Positions 17,072-25,710 of a stretch of 64,000 nt of DNA are shown here, piece by piece; positions within the stretch are counted from its first letter, which is position 1; every line of letters begins with the position of its first letter. Location of the stretch: positions 2,469,501 through 2,533,500 of the forward strand of contig NZ_CP030139.2 in the NCBI RefSeq assembly GCF_003846445.2, read 5' to 3'. The translations under genes were made by a program, and so were the position numbers. The notes below the pieces were generated by a model, which made no database searches, was not told the origin of the DNA, and saw nothing but the letters and a program-made list of their open reading frames with translations. This DNA is from Synechococcus elongatus PCC 11801 (GTDB lineage: Bacteria > Cyanobacteriota > Cyanobacteriia > Synechococcales > Synechococcaceae).

Positions 17072-17908
17072 ATGCGCATCGGCATTGTTGGACTGGGCTT
17101 GATTGGCGGCTCACTGGGCTTTGATTGGCGCGATCGCGGCCACACTGTGTTGGGCTATAGTCGCCGTCCTGAAACCTGTGAGCGGGCGATCGCCCGAGGC
17201 GTGGTGGATACCGCCAGTTCTGATCCGACCGTCTTGCAGGATGCGGAGGTCATTGTCCTGGCCACGCCGCTAGGCGCGCTGGAAACGACTGTGCAGGAAT
17301 TGCGCAGCTACTGGCAGCCTGATGCGATCGTCACCGATGTTGGCTCGGTCAAGCAGCCGATTGTCAGTGCCCTGGAGCCACTGTGGCCCCGCTTTGTTGG
17401 GGGACATCCGATGGCGGGCACCTCTGAAAACGGAATTGAAGCAGCCCTGCGAGGACTCTTCCACGATCGCCCCTACGTGTTGACGCCCACAGATCAAACC
17501 GATCCTGAAGCGATCGCAGTGGTTGAGCTGTTGGCGCAGGAGCTTGGGTCTGTGGTGCTGCGCTGCGATCCGGTCAGCCACGATCGCGCAGTCGCTGCCA
17601 TTTCCCATTTGCCAGTCTTTGTCAGTGCCAGTCTGATTCAGACCTGTCTGCAGGAGCCAGATCCAGATGTACAAACCTTGGCAGCGACCTTGGCCAGCTC
17701 TGGCTTCCGCGATACCAGTCGCGTTGGTGGTGGCAATCCCGAGCTAGGCGCAATGATGGCGCGCTTTAATCGAGTGGCATTGCTGGAGCAGATCGATCGC
17801 TATCAGACTCAGCTAGAACGGTTGAAAACGGCGATCGCTGCTGCCGATGACGCTGCGATCGCGGCTATCCTGCAGCAAAATCAGGAAGTGCGGCCGCGCT
17901 ATCTTTAG
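17072..17908 (+). CDS. tyrA: Arogenate/prephenate dehydrogenase TyrA
   Basis: Catalyses the NAD(P)-dependent oxidative decarboxylation leading to tyrosine; characterised cyanobacterial enzymes are NADP-specific arogenate dehydrogenases. It is 278 residues. The Rossmann motif GIVGLGLIGGSLG begins at residue 4, and the catalytic-region motifs GGHPMAGTSENG and AISHLPVFVSASLI are present. The frame extends upstream to 16892 but MRIGIVGL at 17072 is the natural start. It is followed at about 30 nt by a membrane protein gene on the same strand. Confidence 0.93.
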   Translation: MRIGIVGLGLIGGSLGFDWRDRGHTVLGYSRRPETCERAIARGVVDTASSDPTVLQDAEVIVLATPLGALETTVQELRSYWQPDAIVTDVGSVKQPIVSALEPLWPRFVGGHPMAGTSENGIEAALRGLFHDRPYVLTPTDQTDPEAIAVVELLAQELGSVVLRCDPVSHDRAVAAISHLPVFVSASLIQTCLQEPDPDVQTLAATLASSGFRDTSRVGGGNPELGAMMARFNRVALLEQIDRYQTQLERLKTAIAAADDAAIAAILQQNQEVRPRYL

Positions 17909-17936
17909 GCCGATTGAGGCTGAATTCAAGCTTTCC

Positions 17937-19529
17937 ATGTCGAGTCAACCGACTGCCTCTCTCGAATCTTTGCAACAGGCTGAACGGCGCTGGCAGCGAC
18001 GGCTCAGTTTGGGGTTACTGGCGTTGGCTGCCGGTTCCCTCGCTCTCCTGTTGGTGCAACCGCGCAATGAACCCTGCGGCCGTTTCTGGGTCTGGTGGCT
18101 GGCACCCGTGGCGGAACGGCTCTACTGTGCGGGTCAACAGGCCCAACAAGGGCAACTGGCCAGTTTACAGCAAGCACTGTTTCTTGCTCAGACTATTCCG
18201 GCTTCGGACCCCCTCTACGACACGGCTCAGCGTTATATCGAGCAGTGGACTTGGCAGGCGATCGATCTGGCCAAAGTGCGTTTGGATGATGGCGATCTGG
18301 CCGGCGCGATCGCCATCCTGCAACAACTGCCAAAAGTGCCCTGTCGCGAACGTGATTGCGCCCAAACAGCTGTTAAGGAGCGGCTCGAACAGTGGCCTCG
18401 CCTCTGGGAAGAGGCTGAGCAGTTGGTGGCGGAAGCAGAAGCTGAACTGATGCAACTGCAGTGGGATCGGGCGGCAGCCCTTGCTTCTGGCTTATTAGCC
18501 AATGAAAGCTCCTACTGGAATACGCGACGCTATGAAGCGCTGAATCAACGCATTGTTGCTGTGCGATCGCCCCAAGGGCCTTTTCCCAAGGTGGCGCAGC
18601 AACTGGCCAAAGACGATTTGGACAGCCTGATTGTGGCAGTGCAACTGCTCCAATCCGTACCCCGCTCCAGCCCCGTGCGGGATGTGGCGGATGCCAACCT
18701 CAAACGAACGGGCGATCGCCTTTTAGATCTGGCGAAGACGGCGCTGGAACGACGGAACTTAGCGCCGGTTGAGCAGGTGGTAGCAGCGCTCCAAACTATC
18801 CCAGCCCTGCAGGCAACGGCGCAGGACTTGCAACAACTACAAGCTTGGCAAGTGCGAACTTGGAGTGGCGAGATTCCGGAACTGGCCAAGGTTGTCGCCG
18901 CTGCCGAGACCTATCCCCGCGATCGTCCGCTGGCTCGTTTGATTCAGCAGTACAGCAGTCGCTGGCAAACTGAAATTGAGGATTTGCGCCGTCTGGCTCA
19001 GGCAGAACGACTCGCTGCCAGTGGACGTATTGAAGACTTGCGCCAAGCTCTAGGGGTGGTTCGCCTTATTGCCGAGACCAATCCTCGATCGGCTCAGGTC
19101 AAACGCCTTCAACAGAGCTGGCAGGCTCGGATTGAGCAAAGCGAAGATCAGCCCACCCTACAAGCTGCCGATCGTCTTGCGGCTGAAGGAAAACTACTGG
19201 AAGCGATCGCAACTGCCCAGCGGATTTTTCCCGGTCGTGCTCTCTACACAGCCGCGCAGGCGCGAGTGCAGGATTGGCAACTTCAGATCGATGCCCAGGG
19301 CGATCGCGAATTGCTCGCACAAGCTCAAGCCTTTGCTGCAGCTCAGGATTGGGACAGCGCCATTCGCTTGGCGCAGCAAATTCCGCCAGGGCGTCCGCTC
19401 TACGGTGTGGCTCAAGCACAAATTCGGACATGGGAGCAGGCCAGACCGCCGCTGATTCTGCCAGACGAGCCAACGGCCCCTTCACGCTGGGAAACCCCGA
19501 CTGACCCAGCGATTCCTACCGGACGTTAA
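17937..19529 (+). CDS. Membrane-anchored helical-repeat protein, unknown
   Basis: A 530-residue protein with one transmembrane helix near residues 26-42 (LGLLALAAGSLALLLVQP) followed by a long, almost wholly alpha-helical soluble part rich in Ala, Gln, Leu and Arg. A repeating unit of about 35-40 residues recurs, for example AIATAQRIFPGRALYTAAQ and AIRLAQQIPPGRPLYGVAQ, a TPR-like pattern. The polypeptide is probably periplasmic or luminal beyond the helix. I do not recognise a function. The start chosen is the ATG giving MSSQPTAS; the frame is open further upstream into tyrA. A FecR-domain gene follows after about 70 nt. Confidence 0.8.
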   Translation: MSSQPTASLESLQQAERRWQRRLSLGLLALAAGSLALLLVQPRNEPCGRFWVWWLAPVAERLYCAGQQAQQGQLASLQQALFLAQTIPASDPLYDTAQRYIEQWTWQAIDLAKVRLDDGDLAGAIAILQQLPKVPCRERDCAQTAVKERLEQWPRLWEEAEQLVAEAEAELMQLQWDRAAALASGLLANESSYWNTRRYEALNQRIVAVRSPQGPFPKVAQQLAKDDLDSLIVAVQLLQSVPRSSPVRDVADANLKRTGDRLLDLAKTALERRNLAPVEQVVAALQTIPALQATAQDLQQLQAWQVRTWSGEIPELAKVVAAAETYPRDRPLARLIQQYSSRWQTEIEDLRRLAQAERLAASGRIEDLRQALGVVRLIAETNPRSAQVKRLQQSWQARIEQSEDQPTLQAADRLAAEGKLLEAIATAQRIFPGRALYTAAQARVQDWQLQIDAQGDRELLAQAQAFAAAQDWDSAIRLAQQIPPGRPLYGVAQAQIRTWEQARPPLILPDEPTAPSRWETPTDPAIPTGR

Positions 19530-19597: not shown

Positions 19598-20518
19598 ATG
19601 GCGATCGCATGGGCTCGCATGCTTTTGAGCGCAGCACTTGTGGGAAGTGGTGCTTGGCTTACGAGTGCTCCTGCGATCGCTGCAGAACAGGCCACAATTG
19701 TGGAAATTTTGGATGGCAACCAAGTTTTCATCAATAATCGCCAGGTCCCTGTCAACAGCCGAGCCAGCCGCAACCAACTGGTGCGTACGGGGGATTCGCG
19801 GACACAATTGCGCTTCAGCGATCAGGCGATCGGGCGCTTGGGGCAACAATCGGTGATCAAAATTGGCTCCCGTTGTTTTCAGATCAGTCGGGGCCAAATT
19901 CTGATTTCAGGTCCCCAAGATGGCTGCACCAAGTCAGCCCGCCTGAGTGTTCGCGGCACGAACTATGTAGTTGAAGTCACGGCGGACGGTGCTACCAACA
20001 TCTCAGTCTTAGAGGGACAGGTTGCAGTGACCACCTTTCAGGGGCAGGCAGGAACGGCAGGCGCGGATACCAATCCCGATCCGGCTCTGATCACAGACCC
20101 GAACCTCAAAGAACCGAGCGACCCGACCATTCAAATCCCTGGCAGTGACAGTCCATCTGGACAAATCCCAGCGCCCAACATGCCAGCCGGCGATGCCTCA
20201 CTCACGACAGACCCCAGCCTGACTGAAGCTGGTGACCCCATCGAAACCTTCCCCGAAAATGAAGGTAAAACGGTGGTTCTGCAGGCAGGGCAACAGTTGC
20301 AGCTCAGTCCTGAGGGAGTTTTGCTGACAATTTTGCAGTTGACAGCAGGCGATTTTGCAGGCTTCCTGCAAGGGCAACTCTTTAGCGGTTATCAGGAACC
20401 CTTGCCGGGGTTATCGAACATCCTCAATCAGTACCAAATTCTCTTCCCAGGCGTGGGCTTGCCAGGAATTCCAGGTATCCCAGTTCCATCGGTGCCCAGT
20501 ATTCCATTCTTCTTCTAA
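19598..20518 (+). CDS. FecR-domain exported protein
   Basis: A 306-residue secreted protein. It has a signal peptide ending at AIAAEQ, then a FecR-type beta domain (residues about 27-150: LVRTGDSRTQLRFSDQ, IGRLGQQS, SVRGTNYVVEV, TNISVLEGQVAV). The second half is a Pro/Asp-rich linker and a C-terminal Gly/Pro/Ile-rich stretch (GLPGIPGIPVPSVPSIPFFF). In other bacteria FecR-domain proteins are often encoded beside CHASE2 proteins, and here a CHASE2 cyclase is the next gene. That makes an envelope signalling role plausible, but this is inference. Confidence 0.82.
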   Translation: MAIAWARMLLSAALVGSGAWLTSAPAIAAEQATIVEILDGNQVFINNRQVPVNSRASRNQLVRTGDSRTQLRFSDQAIGRLGQQSVIKIGSRCFQISRGQILISGPQDGCTKSARLSVRGTNYVVEVTADGATNISVLEGQVAVTTFQGQAGTAGADTNPDPALITDPNLKEPSDPTIQIPGSDSPSGQIPAPNMPAGDASLTTDPSLTEAGDPIETFPENEGKTVVLQAGQQLQLSPEGVLLTILQLTAGDFAGFLQGQLFSGYQEPLPGLSNILNQYQILFPGVGLPGIPGIPVPSVPSIPFFF

Positions 20519-20903
20519 ATCTTGGGTTTTTCCAATACTCAATTTTGCCTAGAGATACGCAAAGTGGATCTCGAATCCAGCTGCGCCAGATTGCATTGAT
20601 CTGACAAACAAAAGTTCAATGTATATGGTGTTTAAGAGTAATTTCGGTAGTTGGCTTGCACTGTGATCTCAGTCAATAACTGAGAAATAGTCAGTGTTCA
20701 GGCCGATACGGGTGTTGAAGATCAGCCAGCGACCGCGCTTTACGAAAAACTAGGCCAAGGCACAGCAATCTGGCATTTCAATATCGCAGTTGGTAATTGA
20801 AGAACTAGGTCAGGGGGAAATATTCTGGAACCTCTAGAGTCTCTGAGATGGACATCAATAAGGACTGCTAACCCTTACTGAATGCAACCACGAGCGGAGA
20901 TGA
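20519..20903. other. Gene-free region upstream of the adenylate cyclase
   Basis: A 385-bp gap that is AT-richer than its surroundings and contains no HIP1 octamer. It holds a CRP-like half-palindrome and TCAGT/ACTGA repeats (20662-20695), and two imperfect 17-nt direct repeats (20744-20760 and 20799-20815). It is probably the regulatory region of the cyclase/channel operon. No gene is supported. Confidence 0.5.
20662..20695 (+). promoter_or_regulatory. CRP-like site and TCAGT inverted repeats
   Basis: TGTGA-N6-TCAAT at 20662-20677 matches 8 of 10 positions of the CRP-type consensus TGTGA-N6-TCACA. It overlaps TCAGT-caata-ACTGA (20669-20683), and a further TCAGT follows at 20691-20695. It lies about 230 nt upstream of a gene predicted to make cAMP, so feedback by a CRP-family regulator is conceivable. 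A single near-match is weak evidence. Confidence 0.3.
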
Positions 20904-22805
20904 TTGCTGGCAAGGCTTAAGATTGAGCGATCGCCGTTTGCGGAAACCATAGTGCAGCCCAATTCGATCGATCGTTGGTGCTGGCGCCTTCTGATTGTGG
21001 TCAGTGTGGCTCTCGGTGGGTTGGCAGCTTGGATGCCGCGCACGCTGCAGCGTACTGACCGAGCGCTGCAACAACAGCTATTGCTTTTGCAAGGTACTCG
21101 CCCTGCCCCAACTAACCTGCTGATCGTCAAAATTGACGATGCCAGTTTTGATCAGGCCGCCTTTTTCAGTGAGGATCCCCAGGCCCCTGCTTGGGCAAAA
21201 GATCTGGAGGGATTTCCTTGGCCACGGGCAATTTATGCCCAACTTATCGATCGCTTGTTTGCAGCTGGAGCCCGCGCGATCGCGATTGACCTCCTGTTTG
21301 TCACCCCCAGTGCTTTTGGGCCAGAGGACGATGCCGCGCTAGCACAGCGATTGCAACGCTATGGCGATCGCATCAGCCTGGCAACCGAGTATCGCGAGCC
21401 TGATGGCAGTGGTGGTCTTAGTCTGGGTGAACTGACGGAGACCTTGGGCTCCAACCTGCGGGTTGGCTACATCAACACCCTGCCGGCAGATGATGGCCAG
21501 ATTCTCGACCATCCAGCCCGCTACCGTGAAACCGTGGTTGCACCGCTTGGGCTCCCTGTCTTGCCCAGCCTGCCCGAAACGTTGCAAAAAGAGCGATCGC
21601 CAGCTCGGGCGCTGCGCTACTACGGGCCGCAGGGACATCTCGCTCAGATCTCTGCTTGGCAAGTGTTGGATGACGCAGAGTGGCGACGAGTGCAAGGCCA
21701 AGTGCGCGATCGCCTGATTTTGATTGGTCCGACGGCTGCATCATTGCAGGATCAGCATGCAACTCCCTGGGGTATTCAGTCCGGTGTAGAAATTCTGGCC
21801 ACTGCCTTAGCGAACGATCGCGATCGCTCGGGGTTACGCTTCTGGCCCCAGTCTGCCCCCATGCGGGCTTTGCTCACCAGTCTGTTTTCAGTGGCAATCG
21901 TGCTGGTTTCGCGATCGGGGCGATCGCTGCGTTGGCAGATTGCTCCGGCGATCGCTGCAGCGGGACTCTGGATGGTCGTTGCTTGGCTGAGCTTGCTAGC
22001 AGGCTGGGTCCTGCCACTACTGCTACCCCTCGTTGGCAGTCTGGCGATTGGCGTCAGTACTGGCGCAGCAGCCTACTTACGAGAGGGACTGGAACGCCGT
22101 CGGCTGCGGCAGACCTTTGAACGCTACGTGGCACCCGCTGTCGTCGCTGAAATTCTGCAAAGTCCCTTAGAAGCGCAGCAGCTGTTGCGGGGTCAGCGCC
22201 GAACCGTCACGATTCTGTTCTGTGATCTACGGGGGTTTACGGCTCTGACGCGTGATCGTGCCAGTTTGGGTGATGAGGAAACCCTGATCAGTCAGCTCAA
22301 TGAATACCTGACGGCGATGGTGACCGAGATCACCCAAGTCGGTGGCACTATCGATAAATTTATTGGCGATGCAGTGATGGCGGTGTTTGGATCACCGCTC
22401 TCCCAAGGAGAAGAAGCTGATGCGGCGGCCGCGATCGCAGCGGCTCTTGGTATGCGTCAGGCACTCGAAACCCTCAATCAGCGCTGGCAAGCCGAAGGTC
22501 GCCCCGTCCTCGATAACGGCATCGGTCTCCACTGCGGGCCAGTACTCGCAGGGAACATTGGTTCGCCCCAACGGCTGGAATTCACCGTGATGGGCGATAC
22601 GGTCAACTTGGCGAGTCGATTGGAGAGCATGACCAAGGAACTCAAAGCCCCGATCGTGATCAGTGAAGCACTGCAACAGGTTTTGGGCGATCGCCTGCAA
22701 ACCCGATCGCTGGGGCGATCAGCAATTCGCGGCTACGGCGAGGTGGCTCTCTATGCCGTTGAAGGCTGGGCGATCGCTGTTCCAGAAAACCCAAGAGTGT
22801 CTTGA
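20904..22805 (+). CDS. CHASE2-domain class III adenylate cyclase
   Basis: A 633-residue membrane receptor cyclase. It has an N-terminal transmembrane helix (about 28-45), a CHASE2 extracytoplasmic sensor (about 60-300, with ARAIAIDLLFVTPS and GPTAASLQD), three closely spaced helices (about 310-385), and a cyclase catalytic domain. Catalytic residues are complete: metal-binding Asp441 (CDLRGFT) and Asp489 (KFIGDAVMAVFG), substrate-specifying Lys485 and Thr561 (EFTVMGD), and transition-state Asn568/Arg572 (NLASR). The Lys/Thr pair is that of class IIIb cyclases, several of which respond to bicarbonate/CO2. The start TTG has GGAG about 4 nt upstream; GTG at 20952 is an alternative. The next gene begins 2 nt after the stop. 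Confidence 0.9.
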   Translation: MLARLKIERSPFAETIVQPNSIDRWCWRLLIVVSVALGGLAAWMPRTLQRTDRALQQQLLLLQGTRPAPTNLLIVKIDDASFDQAAFFSEDPQAPAWAKDLEGFPWPRAIYAQLIDRLFAAGARAIAIDLLFVTPSAFGPEDDAALAQRLQRYGDRISLATEYREPDGSGGLSLGELTETLGSNLRVGYINTLPADDGQILDHPARYRETVVAPLGLPVLPSLPETLQKERSPARALRYYGPQGHLAQISAWQVLDDAEWRRVQGQVRDRLILIGPTAASLQDQHATPWGIQSGVEILATALANDRDRSGLRFWPQSAPMRALLTSLFSVAIVLVSRSGRSLRWQIAPAIAAAGLWMVVAWLSLLAGWVLPLLLPLVGSLAIGVSTGAAAYLREGLERRRLRQTFERYVAPAVVAEILQSPLEAQQLLRGQRRTVTILFCDLRGFTALTRDRASLGDEETLISQLNEYLTAMVTEITQVGGTIDKFIGDAVMAVFGSPLSQGEEADAAAAIAAALGMRQALETLNQRWQAEGRPVLDNGIGLHCGPVLAGNIGSPQRLEFTVMGDTVNLASRLESMTKELKAPIVISEALQQVLGDRLQTRSLGRSAIRGYGEVALYAVEGWAIAVPENPRVS

Positions 22806-22807
22806 CG

Positions 22808-24157
22808 ATGGATTTGATCGATCGCTTGGAACGGTGGGCCAGCACGCCTCTCTTTCGGCTGGGCAACAGTCAACTCTCTTTAGGGTCGCTGATACTGCTG
22901 GTCTTACTGGCTGGCTTGCTGCTCTTCCTGATGCGTCAGATCAACCGCTGGCTGCGTGAGATTGTGCTGGTGCGTTTGGGGGTCGAGCGAGGCAGTCGCG
23001 AGGCGATCGCCACCATTAGTAGCTACCTATTGACAGCATTTATCCTCCTGATTGCCCTGCAAGCGATCGGTTTGGATCTCAGCTCGTTCACGGTCTTGGC
23101 TGGTGTTCTTGGCCTAGGACTGAGCTTAGGTTTGCAAAAGCTATCTGCTAGCTTTTTTAGCGGCATCACCTTGCTCCTAGAGCAACCGATTAAAGTTGGC
23201 GATCTGGTCAGCTTGGATGGAGTTCTTGGAACCGTTGAAAAAATTTCCTTCCGCTCGACTTCTGTATGCACCCTCGATCAAGTACATGTCATTGTTCCTA
23301 ACGATCGCCTAGTTGATTCCAATATTATTAACTGGAGCTATCAAGGCACTGCCAGCCGTGTTCATCTGCCGATTAGTGTCGCCTATGGCACCGATCCCCT
23401 CTGGCTGATGGATGCCTTGCTCACCGTTGCCCGACAGGATAGTCGCGTTCTTTCTCAACCTGCACCCACAGTTTGGTTCCGCAGCTTTGGTGATTCTGCA
23501 CTGAATTTTGAGCTGCTATTTTGGACCGATCGCCCCGAACTTATTGAGCCGATCAAAAGTGATCTCAATTTTCGAATTGCTAGTGAGTTTCAGCAGCGTA
23601 ATATTCAAATTCCATTTCCGCAGATGGTTATTCACCGACCTCAAAATGCCACTGTAGCGGAGCTGCCAAGCGACTATTTACCCAGTCTGTTACGGCGCGT
23701 TGATCTCTTTCGAGACTATGACGATAGTCAAATTCGCTTACTGATTGAAAAAGGCTATCGCCGCGCCTGTCATGCAGGTGAAATTCTCTGTCGTGAGGGT
23801 GAAGCTGGAGAAGAATTTTATCTGATTCTGCATGGTCGCTTCAGTGTGCAGGTGCAGAGGCAAGAAGAAGCGATCGCAATTCTTGAGTCTGGTAACTTTT
23901 TTGGTGAATTGGCAGTGATGCTGGATATCCCGCGCACAGCGACGGTCGTGGCGATCGAGCCGAGTGTTCTGTTTGTTGTCGATCGCAATAACCTGCGCCA
24001 CCTCTTAGAACGCTGCCCCAATTTAGCTGAAGCAATGGCTGAACAATTAGCCCAGCGCAAACAAGTATTAACAAGGGCTGGCCTTTTGGCGCCAACCTCC
24101 AATCAATCGCGACCCGATCAACTGCGGAGTGTGTTGCGTCGAGTCCTCCGCTTATAG
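22808..24157 (+). CDS. MscS-family channel with cyclic-nucleotide-binding domain
   Basis: A 449-residue ion channel of the bacterial cyclic-nucleotide-gated (bCNG) branch of the MscS superfamily. Three helices lie in the first 135 residues, the third being the Gly/Ala-rich pore helix (VLAGVLGLGLSLGLQKLSAS). An MscS beta domain follows (LLEQPIKVGDLVSLDGVLG, VPNDRLVDSNIINWS). The C-terminal cNMP-binding domain contains the phosphate-binding cassette FFGELAVMLDIPRTATVVA with the expected Glu and Arg. The gene begins 2 nt after the cyclase stop, so production and sensing of the nucleotide look coupled. A TTG at 22802 in the same frame is a less likely start. Confidence 0.92.
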   Translation: MDLIDRLERWASTPLFRLGNSQLSLGSLILLVLLAGLLLFLMRQINRWLREIVLVRLGVERGSREAIATISSYLLTAFILLIALQAIGLDLSSFTVLAGVLGLGLSLGLQKLSASFFSGITLLLEQPIKVGDLVSLDGVLGTVEKISFRSTSVCTLDQVHVIVPNDRLVDSNIINWSYQGTASRVHLPISVAYGTDPLWLMDALLTVARQDSRVLSQPAPTVWFRSFGDSALNFELLFWTDRPELIEPIKSDLNFRIASEFQQRNIQIPFPQMVIHRPQNATVAELPSDYLPSLLRRVDLFRDYDDSQIRLLIEKGYRRACHAGEILCREGEAGEEFYLILHGRFSVQVQRQEEAIAILESGNFFGELAVMLDIPRTATVVAIEPSVLFVVDRNNLRHLLERCPNLAEAMAEQLAQRKQVLTRAGLLAPTSNQSRPDQLRSVLRRVLRL

Positions 24158-24276
24158 GGATCATCTATTCGTGGACTGGAACTGATTTAATGTGCTGTCT
24201 ACGCACTCATTGCTAGAACGATTGCCTCATGCTGTGAGCTTGCTCAGTTGCCATCCGTCACAATAAGCCAATGGGT

Positions 24277-25419
24277 TTAAAGAAACCAAGCAATCAGAGC
24301 GACCAAAATCAAACTTATCCAAGCTGAGATTTGCCCAATTGTGCCAATGTGGTTCAGTCGGATGCGTAGAGTGTCTTTCTCTTCTTTCTTGACTGCTTCT
24401 AGCTGATTAGAGCTCCAAAGGAACAGGATAAAAAGTCCTAGCGAAATTAGATAGCAATAAGCGTAAATCTTGTCCAGGAAAGTGAGATAGGGAATTGCAG
24501 GCAGTTCGCTCTTATAGCTCTGCTGCATCAGGACTAGTGTCAGTAATGCTGTTGAGGGAATAGCGAGACGAACTTCCTCTAAGAGGCTATCCAAACTAGG
24601 AGCGAGCAGCACGATGATCATGACAATCAGTAGCGGCAGAATCCAAGTCATAAAGGCCGACCAAGGCTCAGTAGAATAGAGGACGTTGACGCTCAACTGA
24701 CTAAACGTCTCCTCTGTATTTTTGGCGGAAATTGGGTAGGTATTTGTAGACTGTTCAATCCAGCCCTTTTCGAGCTTATAGCCTGACAGCTCACTGTAAT
24801 TACCAACAATTGTTGTCATGTTCGGGTCTGGCTCTAGCACTACGGCATGATTGCTAAAGGCAAAGGACTCTGGGCGCGTCTCCAGAACGGTCTGTAACTG
24901 CACGCTGCTAAAAGGCGATCGCCGCTCACCAATCTGGGCAATGTAGAAATTCCCTGAGAAACGAAAAGTTTGGTAATAGCTACCATCGGGTAGCCGCCTT
25001 GGTTCACTCGTCTCTGGCTCAATTCGAGAGTTCCAAGGCTCCACCTGATTGAAGAAATCAATCATTTTACCCGGACGGAGATTTTCCTGTTGCAGAATCT
25101 CGTTTAATTCTTCTGTCCAAGCTACCCAATACCAACCATCGGCAGAATAGGTTTGGAGTGCTAACTGCAAGTTGTAGACATTCTTAAGTTGAATTCCAAC
25201 TTTTAAGGGAATGGTTTTGCTAGGAAGAATTTCTTGGCCATCCTGATTGGGTCTGGCAATTGAGAGTTCCTGGCGTAGCGTCTTCGCACCCGTGCTGATT
25301 GCCTCTGAGGGTGCTGACTGGAGCAGCGTGTGTCCCATCAGGATCAGCGAGATAACAACAAGACTCAGGACTAGCCAACGACTTGGGCGAATGCGAATAA
25401 TCATCATGTCCCTAGTCAT
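24277..25419 (-). CDS. Pentameric ligand-gated ion channel-like protein
   Basis: About 380 residues with the architecture of a prokaryotic pLGIC subunit. It has an N-terminal membrane/signal segment (about 10-30), an extracytoplasmic beta-rich domain of about 200 residues (LQLALQTYSADGWYWVAWTEEL), and four helices. The M1 helix is WILPLLIVMIIVLL, then M2 (RLAIPSTALLTLVLMQQS), the M2-M3 loop and start of M3 (ELPAIPYLTFLDKIYAY) and a C-terminal M4 (ISAWISLILVALIAWFL). The loop followed by the (I/V)D after the LP.. segment resembles ELIC and GLIC. The paired Cys-loop cysteines are absent, as in other bacterial members. The ligand is unknown. Three closely spaced starts exist (GTG 25428, ATG 25419, ATG 25407). 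It converges on the cNMP-gated channel gene. Confidence 0.7.
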   Translation of the reverse strand: MTRDMMIIRIRPSRWLVLSLVVISLILMGHTLLQSAPSEAISTGAKTLRQELSIARPNQDGQEILPSKTIPLKVGIQLKNVYNLQLALQTYSADGWYWVAWTEELNEILQQENLRPGKMIDFFNQVEPWNSRIEPETSEPRRLPDGSYYQTFRFSGNFYIAQIGERRSPFSSVQLQTVLETRPESFAFSNHAVVLEPDPNMTTIVGNYSELSGYKLEKGWIEQSTNTYPISAKNTEETFSQLSVNVLYSTEPWSAFMTWILPLLIVMIIVLLAPSLDSLLEEVRLAIPSTALLTLVLMQQSYKSELPAIPYLTFLDKIYAYCYLISLGLFILFLWSSNQLEAVKKEEKDTLRIRLNHIGTIGQISAWISLILVALIAWFL

Positions 25420-25589
25420 ACCCCGCACCTGATAAAAACTCTCGCTTGTTTTTAATTTGAAACTGAGTCAGTATCTGGATCCTACTCAAATGTTTAGGCA
25501 GATATTTTATGAAACTTTATTCGTATCTCCTCGCTGGCGATCGCTCATGTCTAGCAGCGAAGCCAAATTTTTAATAAAACGATGTGAAA

Positions 25590-25616
25590 CTGTCTTGGTC
25601 TTGATCGGCAAGACAG
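25590..25616 (-). terminator. Weak hairpin downstream of the creatininase gene
   Basis: A perfect 8-bp stem CTGTCTTG/CAAGACAG with an 11-nt loop lies about 100 nt past the creatininase stop on the minus strand and is followed only by TTT. It may terminate that transcript weakly. The rest of the AT-rich 25429-25710 gap shows no supported gene. Confidence 0.3.
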
Positions 25617-25710
25617 ACTGGCTCTTGAGATTATTTGAATAAGTCAATCGCCGCTCAGATGACAGAGCGTTTCTAGTGTCTTGAGTCAACTAAAAAGCAA
25701 TGACTCGCAC

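Follow-up and report, generated by a model that had tools for sequence, protein, structure and literature searches.

A FecR, CHASE2 cyclase and MscS-type channel locus in Synechococcus elongatus as a candidate envelope-sensing cAMP circuit

In marine picocyanobacteria, adenylate cyclases have been reported near either CRP or a cAMP-regulated MscS channel (Dore et al. 2020, PMC7522525). In the accessible text of this genome-diversity paper, the module takes up one sentence, which places a cyclase and a cNMP-binding MscS channel (or CRP) close together, with no FecR partner, no analysis of CHASE2 or of residues, no S. elongatus, no coupling of cyclase and channel genes, and no phosphodiesterase or guanylate-cyclase variants. 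The bCNG channels of the MscS superfamily, among them Ss-bCNGa (Malcolm et al. 2012, as cited in PMC6261518), are described there as joining an MscS core to a C-terminal cyclic-nucleotide-binding (CNB) domain; the channel studied here has the same plan, but its gene is coupled to that of a putative cyclase. An exported FecR-domain protein adjoining a CHASE2 sensor is known from proteobacterial histidine-kinase operons (the BiofilmReg operon, PMC5192318), where FecR usually comes with LysM and the output is a histidine kinase with a response regulator, whereas here it is a class III cyclase with a channel. Activation of CHASE2 cyclases from outside the cytoplasm, with the cue relayed by a partner protein, has been described for CyaD1/CyaD2/CyaK of Sinorhizobium meliloti, with the outer-membrane protein NsrA (PMC13001267); in the accessible part of that account the effector is a CRP-type regulator, Clr, and neither a channel nor a FecR partner appears. 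Synechocystis Cya2 (PDB 2w01), which likewise combines CHASE2 with a class III cyclase domain, is a guanylate cyclase in which E488 sets the use of GTP and E488K switches the enzyme to ATP (PMC5995499). This Glu is common to its DUF928-associated relatives, unlike the Lys/Thr of the S. elongatus enzyme. A literature search that covered few subscription papers found nothing about the S. elongatus locus, about an operon of cyclase, phosphodiesterase and channel, or about FecR together with CHASE2 cyclases. Hence, a cyclase near a cAMP-regulated MscS channel is already known, while the FecR partner, the S. elongatus locus and the phosphodiesterase operon were not found in that literature.

The locus lies within a window of 64,000 nucleotides from S. 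elongatus PCC 11801, whose genome comprises 2.80 Mb in 7 contigs, with a main contig of 2.72 Mb. For comparison we used G011, the one relative at family level, hereafter the sister strain, which is represented by a single 2,696,255-bp contig and whose channel is 85% identical. An earlier note, made from the letters of the window, had described four adjacent genes as a candidate envelope signalling system, and the domains that it named for the FecR, CHASE2 cyclase and MscS-cNMP genes were confirmed by Pfam. The first gene (19598-20518, + strand) encodes a 306-aa FecR-domain protein (PF04773, 6.3e-8; 33.4 bits against a cut-off of 24), with the domain at residues 62-142, an N terminus that by eye resembles a signal peptide, and a C-terminal half rich in Pro, Gly and Asp. 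The gene is flanked by those of a repeat protein and of the cyclase. No FecI-type sigma factor or TonB receptor is present among the open reading frames adjoining fecR, so the canonical FecIR-FecA iron-citrate system was rejected and the role of FecR in it cannot be transferred to this protein. Between FecR and the cyclase lies an intergenic stretch of 433 nt (20519-20951, + strand, GC 0.446), in which about 300 bp of AT-rich DNA (20534-20729 and 20808-20917) are missing from the aligned sister strain. A weak promoter-like match falls in this gap at 20601-20629; the scan for promoters and terminators gave counts no higher than in shuffled sequences and was discarded. Given the length of the gap and the insertion that it holds, FecR may be transcribed apart from the cyclase.

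The second gene (20952-22805, + strand) encodes a predicted CHASE2 receptor adenylate cyclase of 617 aa. Its best start is the GTG at 20952, which aligns with the ATG of the sister strain, and a longer form from a TTG at 20904 is possible. The CHASE2 domain occupies residues 25-310 (PF05226, 1e-36) and the cyclase domain residues 417-604 (PF00211, 3e-23), and the topology read from the sequence, in which CHASE2 leads into membrane helices and an output domain in the cytoplasm, is that of a CHASE2 receptor. The catalytic motifs that had been claimed for this protein proved to be the full adenylate-cyclase set, as seen in alignments with the PDB entries of CyaB and Cya2: the metal-binding Asp residues D425 and D473, the substrate positions K469 and T545, and N552 and R556. 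The two metal Asp, the Asn and the Arg are identical in all 46 aligned cyclases. Lys and Thr at the substrate positions mark the enzyme as ATP-type, predicting cAMP as its product, as opposed to the Glu/Gly of GTP-type enzymes. The S. elongatus-like genomes contain just two class III cyclases each. The second one in the host genome (G000:C1, about 1584194-1586116) also carries CHASE2 and K/T, and its start is overlapped by a FecR-domain, lipoprotein-like gene of its own; both host cyclases are therefore of the CHASE2 type with a FecR gene directly upstream. The locus encodes no phosphodiesterase, and a search for Apyc1-like phosphodiesterases in S. elongatus found none.

The third gene (22808-24157, + strand) encodes a 449-aa MscS-type channel with a C-terminal CNB domain at about residues 290-425, of the bCNG type. 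Pfam assigns MS_channel at 2e-21 and cNMP_binding at 1e-20, with PF21088, PF00924, PF21082 and PF00027 all above their cut-offs; the PDB homologues are MscK, MscM and MscS, and the CNB part resembles the CNB domains of PKA and PKG. An AlphaFold model (m3635ddcbba7f) reached pLDDT 71 and pTM 0.48, and no mechanism was drawn from it. The Glu and Arg of the phosphate-binding cassette hold cyclic nucleotides, and both canonical residues are intact in the cassette FGELAVMLDIPRTATV (23900-23947, + strand). As noted earlier, the channel start follows the cyclase stop by 2 nt: at the junction TGACGATG (22803-22810, + strand) we read the TGA at 22803-22805 and the ATG at 22808. In the sister strain this junction is TGATG, with stop and start overlapping even though the end of the cyclase gene carries a 30-nt indel. 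The dN/dS of the FecR, cyclase and channel genes against this strain is about 0.04, with dS saturated. That the three genes and the stop/start junction were kept while synonymous sites became saturated, and that the associations recur in many genomes, indicates that the arrangement is more than chance. As the pairing recurs across cyanobacteria, the adjacent cyclase probably acts on the channel directly.

A neighbourhood comparison across cyanobacteria, named beforehand as the refuting test, found cyclase-channel adjacency to be conserved and recurrent. Domain presence was taken from Pfam for representative proteins and from tblastn for the others, so that distant family members may escape; contig ends fall near some loci, and orientations and overlaps were counted by script on the retrieved stretches. 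The clearest case is a family, f2, with 34 strong MscS-CNB genes in 30 genomes, identified as picocyanobacteria-like from its small genomes and its fit to the published module. Its loci resemble that module as far as the accessible text describes it. A CHASE2 gene lies within 5 kb of 23 of the 34 channels, against 0.26 expected, and within 8 kb of 27/34, and these clusters are flanked by FecR genes too. The channel and CHASE2 matches are separated by 117-123 nt in four genomes that share a genus. In the one read at the DNA level (G118), the stop codon of the channel gene overlaps the CHASE2-cyclase start codon, again as TGATG, in a gene order that is the reverse of that in S. elongatus. The f2 channels are only about 31% identical to the S. 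elongatus channel, which is why a first class-wide search with the latter missed them; they were revealed through the cyclase neighbourhoods.

Of the 128 MscS-CNB loci outside f2, 13 lie within 3 kb of a class III cyclase. This cyclase sits immediately upstream in the same direction in eight of them, and in none is it upstream on the opposite strand. MscS loci that lack a CNB domain served as a control and gave 0/27, a small set that is not significant alone. On a tree of 97 channels, the cyclase-adjacent state requires at least 8 changes, although the tree is a quick one and some changes are uncertain, and when lineages are counted instead of loci the enrichment outside f2 is modest, with P at about 0.004-0.06 according to the background density. 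The enrichment is thus strong by gene or within f2, and modest by lineage outside it. About 90% of the non-f2 loci have no cyclase within 3 kb, and the pairing is therefore not obligatory. The binding pocket follows the same division: E...PRT is present in all 13 cyclase-adjacent channels on the tree, against PRT in 40 of the 83 others (Fisher 4e-4, uncorrected for kinship), and the Arg is missing or the cassette unaligned in 21 of the 96 channels, all of them among those 83 and none among the 13 (Fisher 0.065, likewise uncorrected).

The association between FecR and CHASE2 cyclases is tighter still. FecR adjoins 24 of 28 further orthologous cyanobacterial cyclase loci, upstream on the same strand in 20, downstream on the same strand in 2, and in other orientations in 2. 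Other cyanobacterial stretches, 2.73 Mb in total, gave a single FecR match in the same search, and even this one has a CHASE2 cyclase for a neighbour. FecR and the CHASE2 cyclase are a conserved pair, more strongly so than the cyclase and the channel are adjacent, and this sensor pair appears to be older than its outputs or portable between them.

Six arrangements were observed among the loci. S. elongatus has FecR, CHASE2 cyclase and channel in this order (variant A), and in G277, G225 and several f2 genomes the same three genes lie close together in mixed orientation (variant B). DUF928 takes the first place in two further arrangements, DUF928 - CHASE2 cyclase - Apyc1-like metallo-phosphodiesterase - channel (variant C; L052, L143, L171) and DUF928 - CHASE2 cyclase - channel (variant D; L056, L161). 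Two loci pair a 431-aa class III cyclase that lacks CHASE2 with the channel (variant E; L069, L154), and in two others, from Moorena, the channel is convergent with the CHASE2 cyclase and DUF928 (variant F; L133, L139). The cyclases of variants C and D carry Glu/Gly at the substrate positions as does Cya2, a guanylate cyclase that E488K converts to making cAMP, and this likeness predicts cGMP as their product. The Apyc1-like phosphodiesterase family occurs in 13 of 291 genomes, with a CHASE2 cyclase alongside in 10 of the 13 loci.

We consider it likely, from these sequence features and their recurrence, that the three core genes encode a local circuit in which FecR and the CHASE2 cyclase sense the envelope and cAMP acts on the MscS-CNB channel. 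In the periplasm, the exported FecR protein would work with the extracytoplasmic CHASE2 domain, presumably by contact, and together they would read an envelope signal, perhaps the osmotic state or that of the cell wall. On the cytoplasmic side, the class III domain would then convert ATP to cAMP close to the membrane, and this cAMP would bind the CNB domain at the C terminus of the channel, whose gene adjoins that of the cyclase and is translationally coupled to it. Binding may open the channel or shift its tension threshold, so that the flux of ions or solutes changes.

The main rival is that the cyclase feeds a cell-wide cAMP pool serving SbtB and CRP-like proteins, with the channel simply co-expressed as part of a response to osmotic or envelope conditions and not gated, through its CNB domain, by this cyclase. 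The two are not exclusive, and we judge this reading to be the less probable one, though a serious candidate. The idea that S. elongatus lacks any other cAMP receptor was rejected, since the genome gives 12 CNB matches, several with intact pockets; at least four other CNB proteins keep both Glu and Arg in the pocket. S. elongatus SbtB has been reported to respond to cAMP (PMC10117731), and with these receptors at hand cAMP need not stay local. Ss-bCNGa is reported, as far as the citation in PMC6261518 conveys it, to be gated by tension (Malcolm et al. 2012), and some CHASE2-FecR pairs in f2 adjoin a CRP-like regulator and a CNB-only protein where a channel might stand. A general pool accounts less readily for direct stop/start coupling in two gene orders, for a pairing that arose independently and repeatedly, for the retention of the pocket in cyclase-adjacent channels, or for operons that join cyclase, phosphodiesterase and channel. 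Another view is that the neighbourhood reflects chance or general operon shuffling and has no functional meaning. Most non-f2 MscS-CNB genes do lie away from cyclases, as this view would have it, but the 23/34 of f2 against 0.26 expected, the coupled junctions and the FecR pairing at 24/28 refute it at the level of adjacency and leave it very unlikely overall.

The combination of a cyclase with a CNB-bearing membrane effector also recalls the general plan of Pycsar anti-phage systems, in which the effector would open on infection. The PADLOC profiles PycC and PycTIR match the cyclase and CNB domains, and the related operons of variant C carry an Apyc1-like phosphodiesterase, from a family named for anti-Pycsar proteins. 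The PADLOC matches, however, span only the generic cyclase and CNB domains, K469 and T545 are adenylate-cyclase substrate residues, and the effector is an MscS channel in place of the TIR or TM type. A CHASE2 domain outside the cytoplasm with an exported FecR partner is the layout of a sensor, and in the two S. elongatus genomes the locus keeps its synteny and is strongly constrained by purifying selection. Membership among Pycsar systems, defined by a pyrimidine cyclase with a TIR or TM effector, was rejected on the substrate residues and the layout, and an anti-phage role of this kind is highly improbable. A search of the plasmid collection gave no match.

Least probable of all is the reading of the earlier note, in which the fourth gene joins the other three in one envelope signalling system. 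This gene (24277-25419, - strand; 380 aa) had been said to look like a pentameric ligand-gated ion channel (pLGIC) subunit, and that identification was borne out. Pfam gave no match, but phmmer against the PDB aligned residues 68-336 with ELIC (5e-9), a profile of 15 homologues reached ELIC at 5e-27, and the AlphaFold model (pLDDT 76) matched GLIC in Foldseek (2e-20). By sequence and predicted fold, it is a genuine prokaryotic pLGIC of the ELIC/GLIC family, and thus resembles neurotransmitter receptors. The gene is adjacent and convergent, and encodes an extracytoplasmic ligand-gated channel, all of which would suit a fourth member. Yet it sits on the opposite strand in a 1546-bp AT-rich insertion (24162-25707; GC 0.454 against 0.55 for the window) that, of the two aligned genomes, only the host carries. 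In the aligned sister strain the order is repeat protein, FecR, cyclase and channel, followed directly by a creatininase, and the pLGIC is absent both from this syntenic locus and from the whole genome. Its occurrence is sporadic (27 of 291 genomes), and the surroundings of its three best homologues (G254, G267 and G064), out to about 9 kb, showed neither a cyclase nor an MscS-CNB match. The four genes are thus adjacent in one genome and not in its sister. The proposed envelope system is partly supported for its FecR/cyclase/channel core, the adjacency of which recurs, and the pLGIC, a bystander here with no link to a cyclase, is not part of the circuit.

More tentatively, the comparison points to a modular cyanobacterial unit composed of an exported partner, a CHASE2 cyclase and a CNB-gated MscS channel, the parts of which may be swapped between lineages. 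FecR would alternate with DUF928 and cAMP with cGMP, a dedicated Apyc1-type phosphodiesterase, here a housekeeping and not a phage gene, would be present or absent, and CRP-like or CNB-only effectors would replace the channel in some genomes. The Apyc1-like enzymes found here belong to a family whose name refers to phage counter-defence, and they suggest that it has an everyday function in the cell. The predicted swap of cAMP and cGMP between lineages provides a built-in test of specificity. In S. elongatus, the locus couples a bCNG-type channel genetically to a conserved exported partner and to a class III cyclase, of which the genome has only two.

The gene immediately upstream of FecR, a position that is kept in the sister genome, encodes a 560-aa protein (17847-19529) with a single membrane-anchor-like segment and repeat units of the pattern LAQQIPPGRPLYGVAQ..IRTW, for which a Pfam search returned no match. 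The gap between FecR and the CHASE2 cyclase holds ~300 bp of AT-rich DNA (20534-20729 and 20808-20917), missing in the sister genome. At the other end of the locus, the pLGIC gene is carried by a strain-specific insertion (24162-25707), which was probably acquired horizontally. The closest relatives of this pLGIC are found in G254 (43%) and G267 (38%), both genomes of the picocyanobacteria-like family f2, and in the cyanobacterial genome G064 (36%).

A second FecR and CHASE2 adenylate cyclase pair is present in the same genome (G000:C1:1583603-1586116, corresponding to L258:5604-8116). Its FecR-like gene begins with a lipoprotein-like sequence and, taking the longest reading, overlaps the cyclase start by ~100 nt. 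Elsewhere, in the cyanobacterial genome G118 (L263:2684-15513), three CHASE2 cyclases cluster within 13 kb with two FecR-like stretches, a single MscS-CNB channel and a SIMPL-domain protein. Convergent to a CHASE2 cyclase, two f2 genomes encode a fusion protein (L334:8007-8921 and L335:8984-9898) that combines a cNMP-binding domain with an MGS-like (methylglyoxal synthase-like) one.

Cya2-type CHASE2 cyclases are adjoined by Apyc1-like (PF23023) metallo-phosphodiesterases at cyanobacterial loci L275, L277-L282, L284, L285 and L052; these enzymes likely represent a housekeeping cGMP/cAMP phosphodiesterase family. In one branch of the MscS-CNB channels (L051, L054, L055, L057, L059, L067, L071, L076, L147, L155, L159 and others), none of whose members has an adjoining cyclase, the phosphate-binding-cassette Arg is replaced by Tyr-Pro-Thr-Thr or Cys-Pro-Thr-Thr. 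Such channels may have lost nucleotide control or may bind another ligand.
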